Positions 6,313 to 39,058 of a DNA stretch of 64,000 bases are shown one piece after another (position 1 is the stretch's first letter; each line of letters begins with the position of its first letter). This DNA is from Symbiodinium natans (Eukaryota; Sar; Dinophyceae; Suessiales; Symbiodiniaceae), in assembly GCA_905221605.1 (NCBI GenBank), contig CAJNDS010001990.1, forward strand, positions 376,001 to 440,000. Reading direction: 5' to 3'. A model generated the notes under the pieces. The model was not told where the DNA came from. It did no database searches and worked only from the letters and a program-made list of their open reading frames with translations. Both the position numbers and the translations under genes were made by a program.

Positions 6313-6936
6313 CTCGAGGACAGCGAGGATGAAAAGGTCGAGAAGGCGGCATTCAGGGATTAGGGTTTTTCAGGGTTTAGGGTTTGGGGCTTAGGGTAAG
6401 GGCTTAGGGTTTAGGGTTTAGGGTTAGGGTTTGGGGTTTAGGGTTTGGGGTTTAGGGGCGACTGAGACCTTTAAACCCTCTAGAAACTGAGCCCCTCTAG
6501 ACTTTACGCCCTCTACACCCTACTCCATCTCTCAACCTTACTCCCTCTAAACCCTAAACCCTGTAAATTCAAAAAATCCCTGAACACCCTAAACCCTGTA
6601 AATTCAAAAAATCCCTGAACACCCTAAACCCTCCAAACCCTGAACCAAGCTTTAACTCCTGAAGGCGGAGCAGGAAGCTGCAGCAGCCAGGGTGGAATTC
6701 CAGGAGGCCTGGGTAGAGGGTTTAGGGCCCCAGGGGTGCCTACTTTCTTAGGGTTTAGGGTTTAGGGTTTAGGGTTTAGGGTTTAGGGTTTAGGGTTTAG
6801 GGTTTAGGGTTTAGGGTTTAATTAGGGTTTACGGTTTAGGGTTCAGGGTCCCTAAACCACAGGGTCCCTAAACCCTGAACCGGTGATCTGGTCTTAAGTC
6901 TTGGACAGGCTAAGGAGGAGGCCAAAACCCGCTGCG
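6313..6936 (+). CDS. Three-exon chain encoding a charged helical segment
   Basis: Proposed exons 6313-6345, 6665-6712 and 6909-6936. Joining them gives LEDSEDEKVEK, AEQEAAAARVEFQEAW and AKEEAKTRC in one frame, an acidic/alanine-rich segment likely to be helical or coiled coil. Intron 1 is GC-AG and flanked by the 8-bp direct repeat GAAGGCGG at both ends. Intron 2 starts GTAGAG. The last exon is followed directly by GTTTAGGG, so the heptamer repeat supplies its donor. Introns contain TTTAGGG and CCCTAAA arrays. No family is recognised; the 5' and 3' limits of the gene are unknown. Confidence 0.6.
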
Positions 6937-7417
6937 GTTTAGGGTTTGGATCCTGCCATGGAGCGATTCGCCGTTTGCGATGCAAGTTCAGCTCTGTGTC
7001 AGGCGCCTTGAAATTTGATTCGGATTCGAAAAGTTCACGAGCTTCCCTGCCCATGCATGTCAATACAACTGCTTATACACGCGAAGTACACACGTGCTCC
7101 ACCCCAAGCCCTACGCCCTGAACATCCCTAAGCCCCAAAACTGACATCCTCAGTACTCTCCTTCATCACCGGAGCCACCGGCAAAGAAAGAACAGAAGGA
7201 ATCAAACAATGGACTGCGTAACTGAATTCAGTGTTTCGGGCAGGGCTTTGCGGGTTCGGGTTCAGGTTGGTCTTTAGGGATACGTTAAACCTGCTGACCC
7301 TACACCCAACCCCAAACATCCAGAGGGCACTGGAGGCATCTTGGGACCCCGAAAACCCCTAAACCCTAAACCCTAAACCCTAAATCCTAAACCCTAAACC
7401 CTAAACCGCGCACCTAG

Positions 7418-7485
7418 AAGGAATGCCGCGCGGAGCAGGCCGAGGTGGAGCGCCTCGGGCCGCAGAGTCTCCCACGATTCTTCAG
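7418..7485 (+). CDS. Exon-like island KECRAEQAEVERLG
   Basis: Bounded by CTAG before and TTCAG|GTTTTG after, and preceded by a CCCTAAA array. One frame reads KECRAEQAEVERLGPQSL, similar in composition to the preceding exon chain. Another frame is also open, and the phase does not follow directly from 6936, so an intervening exon may be missing. Confidence 0.45.
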
Positions 7486-8860
7486 GTTTTGGGGCTTCTT
7501 TTTTTGGTTTCTTTAATATATTTCTGTATTTATCTATGTTTTATTTTTCTTTCTCTCTCTCTCTCTTATATATATATATATATATTTGTGTGTGTGTGTG
7601 TTTTTTTTCTCTTTCTTTGTTTAATTTAGGCCTTGGGGCAGTTCACTTAACCAGTTTTTTGGCAGGGCGGGGAGGACTTCGGTTATCTTAGGTTTAGGGC
7701 GTGGGGAAATTCTCTAAGTTATCGTCCTTTGTTGTCGGGGCGTGGGGGCGGAGGCCTTAAACACAATGGGCAGGATTCTGACAGGAAACCAAAAACTCTA
7801 ACGCCAATTTCGAAAATCCTTCATCTACGCCTTCTAAGCATCTCAACAGTTTGGCATTCTAGGTGGGTGGGTGTTTGGGCTGTAAACGGTTTAGGCGTTT
7901 TAGCACACGGCCTTTTTTTCGTGTTTTTCAGCTCTTCATGGATGGATGGTTTGTTTGGGGGGGAGTTGGGGGGAGAGGGGGGAGGGGGAGAGGGGGCGGG
8001 GGGGGGGGGGGTGTGGTTGCATCCTAGTTGTTGCTATCTTGACTTCCAACCCTAAAATCGGAATCGGGGCGTGAAGCCCAGAGTATGTTGTGCAAAAAGC
8101 AAATACCACTGGCTTGGGCATGGTCGCCATATGAAGGCCCCCCCCACCCAGACACAATAAAGAAATACATAGAACATGAAATAAAAGAACGAGCGAAAGA
8201 CATAGAAAGAATGAAATAACGACATGAAGAAAGAAAGGCATAAAGAGCACCTGTACAGAAAGAAGGACAGATGAATGACCCAACCACGACAAACAGATCG
8301 ACACAAATTGAAAACATTCCGTTCGGGAAGAAGGAACGAACAACAGAAAGACCCAAGAAAGAAATCAACGACAACGAACAAAGAGAGAACAAGAGAAATA
8401 CTAAGCGGAACACTGTTGCATAGAGAGTTGTTTTTGCCTTTGCGAGCCTCTTTGTACGACAAGCTGTCAGGAATCAACGCAGCACCCCAAACACTAACTT
8501 GTATCCAAGCACTCCAAAGTCAAAAGCCCTGTAAATGCAGACCCAACGAGACCGTGACACGACTGGAAGTGCCGAAACCATGCATTTTTCAACGTGTCAT
8601 CAAAAAACAACCATTTTCAAGAGGTCCAAAAACTAGGAAAACTTCACGAACATCGGCAGTGCGAACAGAAACGATACCCAAAGCAGCAGGGCATAGCAAA
8701 CCCCCCCCCCCCCTGGGGGCGTTTTAGGATTTAGGGGTTTGAAGGTGCGCAGCTACAAGGGATTTGGGTGTCCCTATACTTCCAGGGACCGAATAGTTAG
8801 GTTATTCGATCCCTGAAGGACTCATATACTAGGCCCATGGAAGATATAGGTTTTTGGGGG
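7486..8860. other. Low-complexity intron-like stretch
   Basis: T-rich, CT and TA/GT microsatellites (7498-7620), a G-rich tract with a run of 13 G (7961-8011), A/G-rich sequence (8150-8420), and a C run (8700-8713). The overlapping ORFs of 129-150 codons on both strands come from biased composition and match no family. Confidence 0.5.
8765..8835. repeat. Palindromic element, family E
   Basis: Contains ACTTCCAGGGACCGAATAG and the near-complement ATTCGATCCCTGAAGGAC around a short loop. Related CTTCCAGGGACCTAAT-type sequences occur near 25350, 25580 and 26430 (inverted). Looks like a short non-autonomous palindrome. Confidence 0.55.
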
Positions 8861-8941
8861 ATTGTGGAGCCGCAAACCCTAAACCGTAAACCCTAAACGC
8901 TGAACCCTAAACCCCAAACCCTAACCCCTAAACCTTTTCAG

Positions 8942-10460
8942 AGTTCTTGAGGGCCTCGGCCACCCTTAGAAGTGAGGCGGTGGCTACGCCGGTATCAGCC
9001 AGGGGCTTGGCAGATGTTCGGTGAACCTTGCAAGTCAGTTGCAATAGTGTTTAGTGTTTAGGGTTTAGGGTTTAGGGTTAGGGTTTAGGGTTTAGGGTTT
9101 AGGGTTTAGGGTTTAGGGTTTAGGGTTTAGGGTTTATGGTTTAGGGTTTAGGGGTTAGGGGTTAGGGGTTAGGGATTAGGGTTTAGGGTTTAGGGTTTAG
9201 TGTTTAGGGTTTAGGGTTTAGGGTTTATAAGGGTTTCGGGCTTCTCCCCATGCTTGGGTCTTTTCGGGTTTGAGGTCTTTAGGGATGTCTGGGGCCGGCA
9301 TCCCTAGCGCCAAAAAACCTGTAAGGTCCAGAAGACCCTGAGCGCAATCAAAGCCTTACATACTAACGGGTTTAGGGTTTAGGGTTTAGGGCCCCTAAGC
9401 CCTAAACCCTTGCTATCCCTACAAGCCTTCAGACCCCCAACAGTACCCTAAGCCCCAAATGCCGTAAGCCCCAAACGCTTACAATTCCCAGACCCTAAGT
9501 CCCAACACAACACCCTGATCCCTGAGACAAAAATGGCGCCAAATCCCTGAAGAACCTTCGAAACCCTAAGAACCCTAAACCCTAAACCACAGCCTCCAGA
9601 GGACGCTCCTCCTCAAGGCAGAGCCCGCGCCTGGCCAAGCGTCGCAGCGACGCGATCCCTACGCTCCGCCGGAGCTGATCAAGTGCCCGGGCTAAGGTTT
9701 TAGGGTTCGGGGTTTAGGGTTTGGGGTTTGGGGGGCCCGGACGGCCCGGAATTGCTTGAAGCACTAAACCTAGATCTAACACCCCACCCGAACAAAGCAC
9801 TTTGGGAAGTCTTGAAAGCCTTCTTACATCCCCTATAAAACCCTAAGCCCTAAACAATAGAGGCCGACATTCAGAGTGCGTTCGGAGGCTCAGAGCCTGA
9901 ACCCTAAACCCTAAACCCTAAACCCTAAACCCTACACCCTACTTAGGGTTGGACAGGAACAGCCAGCAGCCCTTTCGGAAAGCTAGCCGCGACGACCTCC
10001 GGGTGGGAAGCCCAGCTGCCAATGGTTTCGGAGACTTTGGCTTAAGGTTTAGGGTTTAGGGTTTAGGGTTTAGGATTTAGGGTTTAGGGTTTAGGGTTTA
10101 GCCCCTGACCGTGACATCTAGGGTTCAGGGTTAAGGCTGTATTGGGTTTTGGGTCTAGGGTTAAGGGTTCCCTGAACGCTAAACCCTCAACCCAATTTGA
10201 GGGTTCAGAGCACGGTTTTCGGTAGCACGGCTTTCGGTCTTAGGCTGGCACTATGGTTCTCTTTGTTTCACAGTTCTTAGGACATCAGGGATATGCATTG
10301 GGACGTTCCCACTTGTACTCACAGTCCTTAAGGGAACATCCCAAGATATGTACGCTGTAATTGCTAAGGACTCGTTAGTTTCAGGTTAAAGGGTTTCGCT
10401 TGTTTTTGGAGCCGTTCAGCGTTCAGGAGGCGGTGACGGACATGGCCGGGCGGAGAGAGC
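8942..10460 (+). CDS. Five-exon chain of an unrecognised protein
   Basis: Exons 8942-9020, 9593-9690, 9861-9894, 9957-10046 and about 10420-10460 stay in one frame when joined. Translation includes FLRASATLRSEAVATPVSAR, LQRTLLLKAEPAPGQASQRR, DPYAPPELIKCP, EADIQSAFGGS, NSQQPFRKASRDDLRVGS, PAANGFGDFG and VQEAVTDMAGRR. Donors are GTGAAC, GCTAAG, GCCTGA and GTTTAG (the last is heptamer repeat); acceptors are TTTTCAG, CCACAG, AATAG and GACAG. Each intron carries TTTAGGG and/or CCCTAAA blocks. No domain is recognised. The chain can be continued in phase into the exons at 11367 if a GA donor is used near 10458. Confidence 0.6.
9056..9235 (+). repeat. TTTAGGG array inside an intron
   Basis: About 25 heptamers, some TTAGGGG or TTAGGG variants, directly downstream of the exon ending at 9020, on the coding strand. 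Confidence 0.9.
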
Positions 10461-38546: not shown

Positions 38547-38786
38547 GCTTTAGGGATGTTCGAAACCTCAACAACATAGAAGCCCAAAAACCATAAAGCC
38601 CTAAGACGCTAAGAGATCCTAAAACCATAAAGCCAAACACCCTTTTATAAACTCTAAAGCCTAAAACCCAAAAAGCCCAGAAGCCCTGTGCTCTAACGCC
38701 CTACACCCTCAACTAAAGGGCTCACGCATGCGCAGTGGCAAGATTCCCCTGGTTCTTAGTAGGGAATGCGGGAATCAGGGCCCCAT

Positions 38787-38789
<3 letters not shown>

Positions 38790-38824
<35 letters not shown>

Positions 38825-38970
38825 ATATATATATACATATATGTATATATATATATGCATACCCTTTAAGGGACTATATACATACCCTTTAAGGGACTAT
38901 ATTAGGGTACCCTCGTTCTCTACAAAGAGCCACCCTTTAAGGGACTATATAGGGTACCCTCATTCTCTAC
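38790..38970. repeat. TATA microsatellite and 'CCCTTTAAGGGACTATAT' repeat
   Basis: TA/TATG run 38790-38858, then three copies of ACCCTTTAAGGGACTATAT (palindromic CCCTTTAAGGG), two of them followed by GGGTACCCTC.TTCTCTACAA. Confidence 0.85.
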
Positions 38971-39036
38971 AAAGAGCAGAGCCAGCAAGATTGCGGGTGC
39001 GAGCTCCTTAGAGTGAAGCCTCTGCCTGCTCTCCAG

Positions 39037-39058
39037 GCTCTGAGCCACCTGGACAAGG
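39037..39058 (+). CDS. Possible micro-exon ALSHLDK
   Basis: 22 nt between TGCTCTCCAG| and AAGG|GTTTAGGG. Good splice signals but too short for confidence. Confidence 0.35.

Follow-up and report, generated by a model that had tools for sequence, protein, structure and literature searches.

Telomeric heptamer arrays around exon-sized islands in Symbiodinium natans: probable introns tending to start with TTTAGGG and end with CCCTAAA

Telomeric arrays are known from chromosome interiors in mammals, where 31% of human short interstitial telomeric sequences are intronic (PMC7215372), and in Eimeria, where the heptamer TTTAGGG ranks with the commonest simple repeats and is dispersed over the chromosomes (PMC9131526, PMC4287421). 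Dinoflagellate introners, described from Amoebophrya, Prorocentrum and Symbiodinium, carry inverted repeats at both intron ends (PMC7789003, PMC10666404, PMC9860276). The passages searched in the open literature describe interstitial telomeric sequences, dinoflagellate introners and heptamer bands in Eimeria, and nowhere mention introns bounded by telomeric arrays. The string 'telomer' is absent from the main text of the paper in which full-length cDNA of Symbiodinium natans was published (PMC8045281). Here we describe a stretch of 64,000 nucleotides from S. natans (contig CAJNDS010001990.1, positions 376,001 to 440,000; hereafter the window), in which blocks of the same heptamer, read as TTTAGGG or CCCTAAA, alternate with short non-telomeric islands. 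The sequence suggests that the islands are probably for the most part exons belonging to ordinary nuclear genes in a photosynthetic dinoflagellate, with the heptamer arrays lying in their spliceosomal introns.

The window covers 376-440 kb within a 719,674-bp contig, and hence is not a contig end. Exact heptamers make up 4,215 bases as TTTAGGG and 3,555 bases as CCCTAAA, and the alternation of blocks and islands is found chiefly at 5-39.5, 48-52 and 55-64 kb. Arrays reading TTTAGGG on the plus strand are denoted F and those reading CCCTAAA on the plus strand R. Genome-wide patterns were counted over 759,417,921 bases in 2,543 contigs. Overlapping matches to (TTTAGGG)x3 numbered 1,185,204 forward and 1,184,385 reverse (~2.37 million, the strands being equal), compared with 41 and 33 for a reversed-pattern control. 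Further regions were sampled via contig number; 20 were requested, 3 contigs were too short, and two of the remaining 17 regions were below 10 kb. Across these 17 regions the exact heptamer accounted for 8,827 of 158,149 bases (5.6%), ranging from 0.2% to 20% per region and exceeding 10% in 5 of the 17. Since the heptamers are found genome-wide, though unevenly spread, the arrays are neither chromosome ends nor confined to subtelomeres, which agrees with an earlier note, made from the sequence alone, that the repeats are not chromosome ends. Arrays of the telomeric unit away from chromosome ends are what defines interstitial telomeric sequences, and such arrays were found. The start positions of 111 arrays cover all seven rotations of the heptamer, with unequal use (8 to 28 per rotation). 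Array length is variable (median 54, largest 187 bp), the unit sequence varies within arrays, and the flanks are largely unique. Degeneration along the arrays has a weak polarity (49 vs 30; sign test p = 0.04, Wilcoxon p = 0.08).

Islands of ~110 bp tend to have CCCTAAA at their left and TTTAGGG at their right, a polarity absent from the earlier note. The neighbour-gap test in the window used 115 arrays containing 20 or more bases in exact heptamers; the gap range of 70-165 bp was picked post hoc from the window and fixed beforehand for the 17 other regions. In the window, gaps of this size were found for 21/31 R>F neighbours, against 8/32 for F>R, 5/24 for R>R and 8/27 for F>F, and 10,000 label shuffles never produced as many as 21 R>F gaps. 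When the range was widened to 60-170 bp, R>F (21/31) still exceeded F>R (11/32, p = 0.0045). The 17 other regions gave 17/31 R>F vs 7/29 F>R (p = 0.005), with 13/29 R>R and 7/25 F>F. Genome-wide, R-N{80,110}-F had 83,227 matches vs 35,412 for F-N{80,110}-R, while at a spacing of 300-330 bp the counts were 143,516 for R-F and 134,098 for F-R. Between the two spacings tested genome-wide (80-110 and 300-330 bp), the marked R-F excess thus belongs to the exon-sized one. Mean exon lengths in two Polarella and four Symbiodiniaceae genomes are 101-158 bp (PMC7245778). Therefore, introns on either strand would tend to start with TTTAGGG (UUUAGGG) and to finish with CCCTAAA (CCCUAAA). Counter-examples to the R-island-F arrangement exist, and facing arrays are mostly separated by other sequence (median gap in the window 226 bp at threshold 20).

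Coding signal was scored using a codon model derived from one cytochrome c6 exon, the exon at 57403-57885 on the minus strand and a generic prior set by the analyst. The gene finder accepted AG|G acceptors and GT, GC or GA donors, all three of which are used in the dinoflagellate lineage (PMC11453091), and built a frame-consistent chain. Controls were 60 dinucleotide shuffles for the coding score and 400 per-island phase randomisations for in-frame joining. The 28 R-F islands of 70-170 bp, with some repeat regions omitted, had a coding score above that of random non-telomeric windows (p = 8e-6) and outscored the other gap kinds (p = 0.002). Moreover, predicted exons overlapped 15/28 R>F islands of 60-170 bp vs 0/14, 1/11 and 3/14 for the other kinds. 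The plus-strand chain at 5.0-21.3 kb scored 83.7 vs 17.4 ± 5.6 for shuffles (largest 33.7; z = 11.9). Elsewhere, the better strand gave z = 1.4 (plus, 21.3-30 kb), 4.1 (plus, 30-39.5 kb) and 3.1 (minus, 47.9-52 kb). The minus strand at 55.3-64 kb reached z = 17.4, a value that is partly circular since a training exon sits there, and its plus strand reached 5.5. No spliced-coding signal was detected by the gene finder at 39.5-47.9 and 52-55.3 kb. In-frame joining at 5.0-21.3 kb (83.7) exceeded the phase-randomised value of 74.1 ± 3.7, with a fraction of 0.003 of the 400 randomisations at or above it; the fraction was 0.025 for 5-39.5 kb and 0.098 for the minus strand of 5.0-21.3 kb. The proposal that repeat blocks separate coding islands therefore stands as regards the alternation itself and the spliced coding signal at 5-21 kb. 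Predicted exons lie inside the first four exon ranges of the earlier note (6313-6936, 8942-10460, 11367-12962 and 16186-18681), yet also outside them (e.g. 7421-7485 and 13879-15307). Features of the plus-strand chain are as follows, taken from the gene finder unless another basis is given.

6307..6348, plus strand: predicted exon (EQLEDSEDEKVEKA), CCCTAAA to the left and TTTAGGG to the right.
6665..6712, plus strand: predicted exon (AEQEAAAARVEFQEAW).
9602..9690, plus strand: predicted exon, CCCTAAA to the left and TTTAGGG to the right.
11367..11425, plus strand: predicted exon with a GC donor (VLSMLMVLSHFEEGGTNLG).
11632..11689, plus strand: predicted exon (NLTRHPQLLDLVRHNRWLE), a CCCTAAA array on one side and a TTTAGGG array on the other.
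11819..11881, plus strand: predicted exon (DDPGALELLCRIHNFHMKGAE), flanked by a TTTAGGG array on each side.
14259..14343, plus strand: predicted exon (SVQKPVSFTPGEQFASTHNGIRMVSAD).
15240..15307, plus strand: predicted exon (RKDMLTSVQDAAAYTEDFKVRL), the intron opening directly with TTTAGGG.
16186..16293, plus strand: predicted exon with the first EF-hand-like loop (LDTPGLGRVSF), from the gene finder and a PDB alignment.
16305..16382, plus strand: TTTAGGG array in the 5'-terminal part of the intron separating the two EF-hand exons, from the array scan.
17072..17204, plus strand: predicted exon with the second EF-hand-like loop (LDSNSSGFITLESW), its predicted donor inside the end repeat of a terminal inverted repeat (TIR) element.
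20074..20153, plus strand: predicted exon (EFDFAGDWGALWGALDENQDGMLTAP), flanked by CCCTAAA and TTTAGGG.
21048..21165, plus strand: predicted last exon, open until a stop at ~21165 when read by eye; the gene finder gives 21048-21133.
31162..31290, plus strand: predicted 129-nt intron, mostly TTTAGGG-like repeats, in a region where in-frame joining is unsupported.

A long CGA/GAC-type triplet repeat at 28200-28560 is open in several frames and inflated the gene-finder scores there.

The plus-strand chain at 5-39.5 kb comprises 42 exons, separated by 41 introns. Up to 120 nt from the donor, the closest array was F in 25 of these introns and R in 5, with none in 11; at the acceptor it was R in 24 and F in 6, again with none in 11. 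In the 38 introns shorter than 1.6 kb, the first F array lay a median of 28.5 nt from the donor vs 119 nt in circular shifts (p = 0.0002), and the last R array a median of 35 nt from the acceptor vs 104 nt (p = 0.003). The arrays had been called intron filler, and they do lie between coding islands, but that term misses their closeness to intron ends and their preferred orientation.

A number of results weigh against this interpretation. The donor rule of the finder can pick GG|GT inside TTTAGGG arrays, and the minus strand of 5.0-21.3 kb also exceeds its shuffles (42.3, z = 4.5). Splice-like motifs are not prominent at island edges; 23/52 islands could be oriented, and on their acceptor side AGG was found in 16/23 and CCT in 20/23. 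Joining at 21.3-39.5 kb was no better than random (fraction 0.815), and fractions of 0.072 and 0.080 were obtained for 11.3-21.3 kb and for the minus strand at 57.9-64 kb. Because of these joining results, the six in-frame chains claimed previously are supported for the first four as a group, but not for the last two (31101-31335 and 36005-36602, both within 21.3-39.5 kb). Taken by itself, the 48-64 kb part has no significant polarity (p = 0.23, 60-170 bp range). The minus-strand chain at 48-64 kb (14 introns) is without donor polarity (5 vs 5; acceptors 6 vs 2), and its arrays are not close to donors, at a median of 114 nt against 97 nt (p = 0.68); the median acceptor distance was 47 vs 124 nt (p = 0.11). 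Gene-model polarity was likewise weak in the 17 regions, where F led at donors by 31 vs 22 and R at acceptors by 30 vs 18; F precedes R in 15 of the 21 introns there that contain both. Polarity is thus far clearer in the island statistic than in gene models, which show it clearly only for the plus strand of the window. Finally, the predicted duplex of intron starts with intron ends (-46.4) is no stronger than that of starts with starts (-46.5), and pairing of intron ends was rejected as a mechanism, although the end-end duplex is weaker (-29.9).

Homology of the joined products is supporting rather than decisive. The earlier note had recognised a multi-EF-hand protein, and two EF-hand-like loops were indeed found in consecutive predicted exons. 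However, a manual join of 190 aa matched Pfam EF-hand_6 (E = 2.7e-5) at 24.0 bits, below the gathering cut-off of 25, which counts against the call and leaves it modest. Searched against PDB, a join of 83 aa matched EF-hand proteins best, namely a calcium-binding protein at E = 0.0049 and polcalcins, the strongest of them at E = 0.006. The polcalcin alignment spans the junction of exons 16186-16293 and 17072-17204, between which lie TTTAGGG and CCCTAAA arrays. Plain three-frame scans of the plus strand at 6301-21302 found no Pfam family. At 17705-17735 the EF-hand frame is broken near CTTTGAC (~17722), which may point to a pseudogene, a fault in the assembly or a splice site that went undetected.

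The second match comes from the minus strand at the end of the window:

63879..63983, minus strand: predicted exon (RTPYEGFVKAVLGDVAVVDFGHSVQGTLPLGWLT) with TTTAGGG (on the minus strand) 8 nt downstream; the gene seems to extend into the adjoining region L038, which has S1-like pieces.

Region L038 and window positions 63135-63983 (minus strand) may hold a gene for a multi-S1-domain protein in a 10-kb stretch, with arrays taking up to 37% of a kilobase. A five-piece manual join of this gene, the pieces lying among arrays, matched S1 at E = 3.1e-6 and 27.9 bits, passing the Pfam cut-off of 22. Within it only one stretch passes alone, three single pieces and two two-piece joins stay below, and the best single piece has 18.8 bits. 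To be set against this, the second half adds nothing to the first when joined alone, and two S1-like L038 exons on the minus strand (6282-6371 and 3404-3488) are flanked by CCCTAAA at their donor end, opposite to the rule; the L038 piece at 1942-2008 (minus) obeys the polarity. Two other candidates were discarded. A PA14 join in region L022 brought no improvement over its last exon alone, and the chaperonin PF00118 had 6 matches in the same genome, of which the two loci inspected were not telomere-rich genes.

It had also been claimed that introns are systematically built from telomeric heptamers, which is too strong. Besides the uneven content of the 17 regions, two genes provide array-free introns. 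The first also serves as host marker and internal control:

1..4260, plus strand: tandem plastid cytochrome c6 genes, unit ~1.1 kb, with telomere-free introns.

The joined cytochrome c6 (petJ) product matches PDB cytochrome c6 (E = 5.6e-28). These tandem genes adjoin telomere-rich sequence and yet have array-free introns, and further copies in the upstream region L039 (8627-9997) likewise have short introns without telomeric arrays. The second is an ankyrin gene in L039 (~1178-2993), with no arrays between its predicted exons.

Telomeric heptamer arrays have spread through the genome and, if the islands are exons, into introns, and we infer that they are transcribed and spliced out. (UUUAGGG)n would follow the 5' splice site and (CCCUAAA)n would precede the 3' splice site, as a preferred and not a strict arrangement. 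CCCUAAA may be harmless or useful near a 3' splice site, because it has no AG or GU and offers a CUAAA branch-like stretch. UUUAGGG would create decoy UUUAG|G acceptors (also GG|GT) and so might survive chiefly close to the 5' end, with its G-runs perhaps of use there. Selection on splicing would thus place CCCTAAA near acceptors and hold TTTAGGG away from them, and whether splicing maintains the polarity is close to an even call. As array starts fall in all phases, capture or telomerase-like addition is favoured over a fixed-end transposon, and entry via telomerase-type capture in break repair is put forward tentatively. It is doubtful that the arrays go further and act as working intron-end elements, that is, as an orientation code, built from chromosome-end DNA and seeded by telomerase-type repair, that helps to mark the 5' and the 3' end in introns numbering many thousands. 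The effect of interstitial telomeric repeats on splicing has been raised elsewhere as a point to test (PMC7215372). Tolerance of so much chromosome-end DNA within the genes of an alga would be relevant to intron gain and gene annotation, and also to the way in which internal sites escape telomerase and telomere proteins.

Two alternatives concern the origin of the arrays and are compatible with splicing. The first is that they are telomeric TIRs of introner-like mobile elements, every insertion having created an intron with TTTAGGG at its start and CCCTAAA at its end, in the manner of introners in related dinoflagellates. Dinoflagellate introners are also, reportedly, the subject of a study by Roy et al. 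(2023). In the inverted layout of their ends, the predicted introns resemble introners as defined in the literature (PMC7789003, PMC10666404), and Symbiodinium introners with TIRs are on record (PMC9860276). Of introns with an array within 120 nt, 25/30 have F at the donor and 24/30 R at the acceptor in the plus-strand chain, 5/10 and 6/8 in the minus-strand chain, and 31/53 and 30/48 in the 17 regions. Non-telomeric TIR elements also sit among the same predicted introns. However, the seven start rotations and variable lengths of the arrays are not fixed ends, and on account of the rotations a fixed-end transposon with telomeric TIRs was rejected. Moreover, a masked self-comparison, with some repeat regions omitted, revealed two TIR families and local repeats but no other shared intron core; neither fixed ends nor sequence common to copies, the marks of introners, were found. 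One array is nested inside a TIR element, suggesting that arrays can enter an existing intronic element. An introner origin is on this evidence unlikely. The TIR elements are:

17192..17330, plus strand: introner-like element with TIRs, family B; other copies at ~31930-32125 and 36873-37022.
31930-32125: family B TIR element (CTTGGAGGTTC...GAACCTCC) with the nested CCCTAAA array.
~12035-12075, 14560-14649, 18768-19013, 20404-20506, 23052-23259, 28875-29032 and 58133-58174: short inverted-repeat family (GGGATGTTCCCCC...GGGGGAACATCCC), apparently intronic, possibly introners or miniature inverted-repeat transposable elements.

The second origin is end healing, in which telomerase caps both sides of a break (TTTAGGG leftwards, CCCTAAA rightwards) before rejoining, so that polarity would reflect the chemistry of healing. 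Mammalian telomeric insertions arise during break repair (PMC7215372), and array starts in all phases fit such an origin. At separations below 60 bp, F>R neighbours outnumber R>F ones (15 vs 6, p = 0.024), which is weak support, but with longer arrays the excess is gone (5 vs 3, p = 0.33). Facing arrays usually have intervening sequence, as the median gap indicates, and the proximity of plus-strand arrays to predicted exon edges is not predicted from healing alone. We therefore consider healing scars an improbable source, at about the level of introners.

A third alternative takes the islands as decayed gene pieces in untranscribed, satellite-like telomeric sequence. The frame interruption near 17722, the weak domain scores and the lack of in-frame joining at 21-39 kb all favour debris of this kind. 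The two L038 exons with donor-side CCCTAAA and the minus-strand distances also speak for debris, and against both the exon interpretation and the orientation code. Debris nevertheless has to contend with the strong coding signal (z = 11.9) and in-frame chain at 5-21 kb, and with an exon-size polarity that is genome-wide. Nor do the islands resemble one another, masked self-comparison finding no island-to-island similarity beyond one 35-bp local duplication. In this duplication (20139-20173 and 20207-20241, 94% identical) the end of exon 20074-20153 recurs within the neighbouring intron. The earlier note had named debris of unrelated genes as its refutation, and in-frame joining, the two EF-hand-like loops and, weakly, the S1-like pieces make this less likely; on balance we judge debris rather improbable. 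An assembly or base-calling artefact is very improbable, since although the sequence is homopolymer-rich with at least one frameshift, units vary, flanks are largely unique, strand counts are equal and the reversed pattern, as control, hardly occurs.

Exons separated by telomeric introns hence remain the probable interpretation of the islands, and other features of the window lie beside them. The minus-strand block includes:

57413..57885, minus strand: long exon encoding a hydrophobic, transporter-like product without Pfam or PDB match; it supplied the training exon 57403-57885.
57413-58625, minus strand: the hydrophobic transporter-like protein in several predicted exons, with introns almost free of telomeric heptamers.

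Plain frame scans at 55.3-64 kb (three minus frames, one plus frame) found no domain, and Rfam, tRNA and spliced-leader searches across the window gave no match. Few telomeric arrays are present at 39500-47900 and 52400-55300, between the plus-strand and minus-strand gene blocks, which may be a boundary where gene blocks converge, as has been described for S. microadriaticum. Large tandem repeats (~42480-45700), palindromic repeats (54400-55200) and, nearby, AT-rich repeats (48480-49980; 24-26% GC) were seen by eye. Five viral contigs (L001-L005) also carry (TTTAGGG)n, with arrays of 49-105 bp and similar flanks in L001, L003, L004 and L005. This is an unrelated occurrence; each has one or two arrays without island structure, and the contigs were rejected as relatives. 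EF-hand and element patterns searched in viral contigs revealed no relative, and a single pattern match in a metagenome-assembled genome of Xanthobacteraceae was taken as chance.

The telomeric introns proposed here can be set against the described systems. Mammalian short interstitial telomeric sequences are likewise internal, but their intronic fraction fits random insertion (PMC7215372), whereas here the arrays are far more abundant and are polar around exon-sized islands. Eimeria shares the heptamer and its spread along chromosomes, but there it occurs in bands with CAG repeats, polarity around exons is unmentioned in the available text (PMC9131526, PMC4287421), and the host here is a photosynthetic alga. 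As in dinoflagellate introners, inverted sequence tends to lie at the two ends of the predicted introns, most clearly in the plus-strand chain; in this case, however, the inverted ends would be heptamer arrays of variable phase and length, without a shared core. Taken together, these comparisons suggest that telomere-bounded introns would be a new form related to interstitial telomeric and introner-like sequence.

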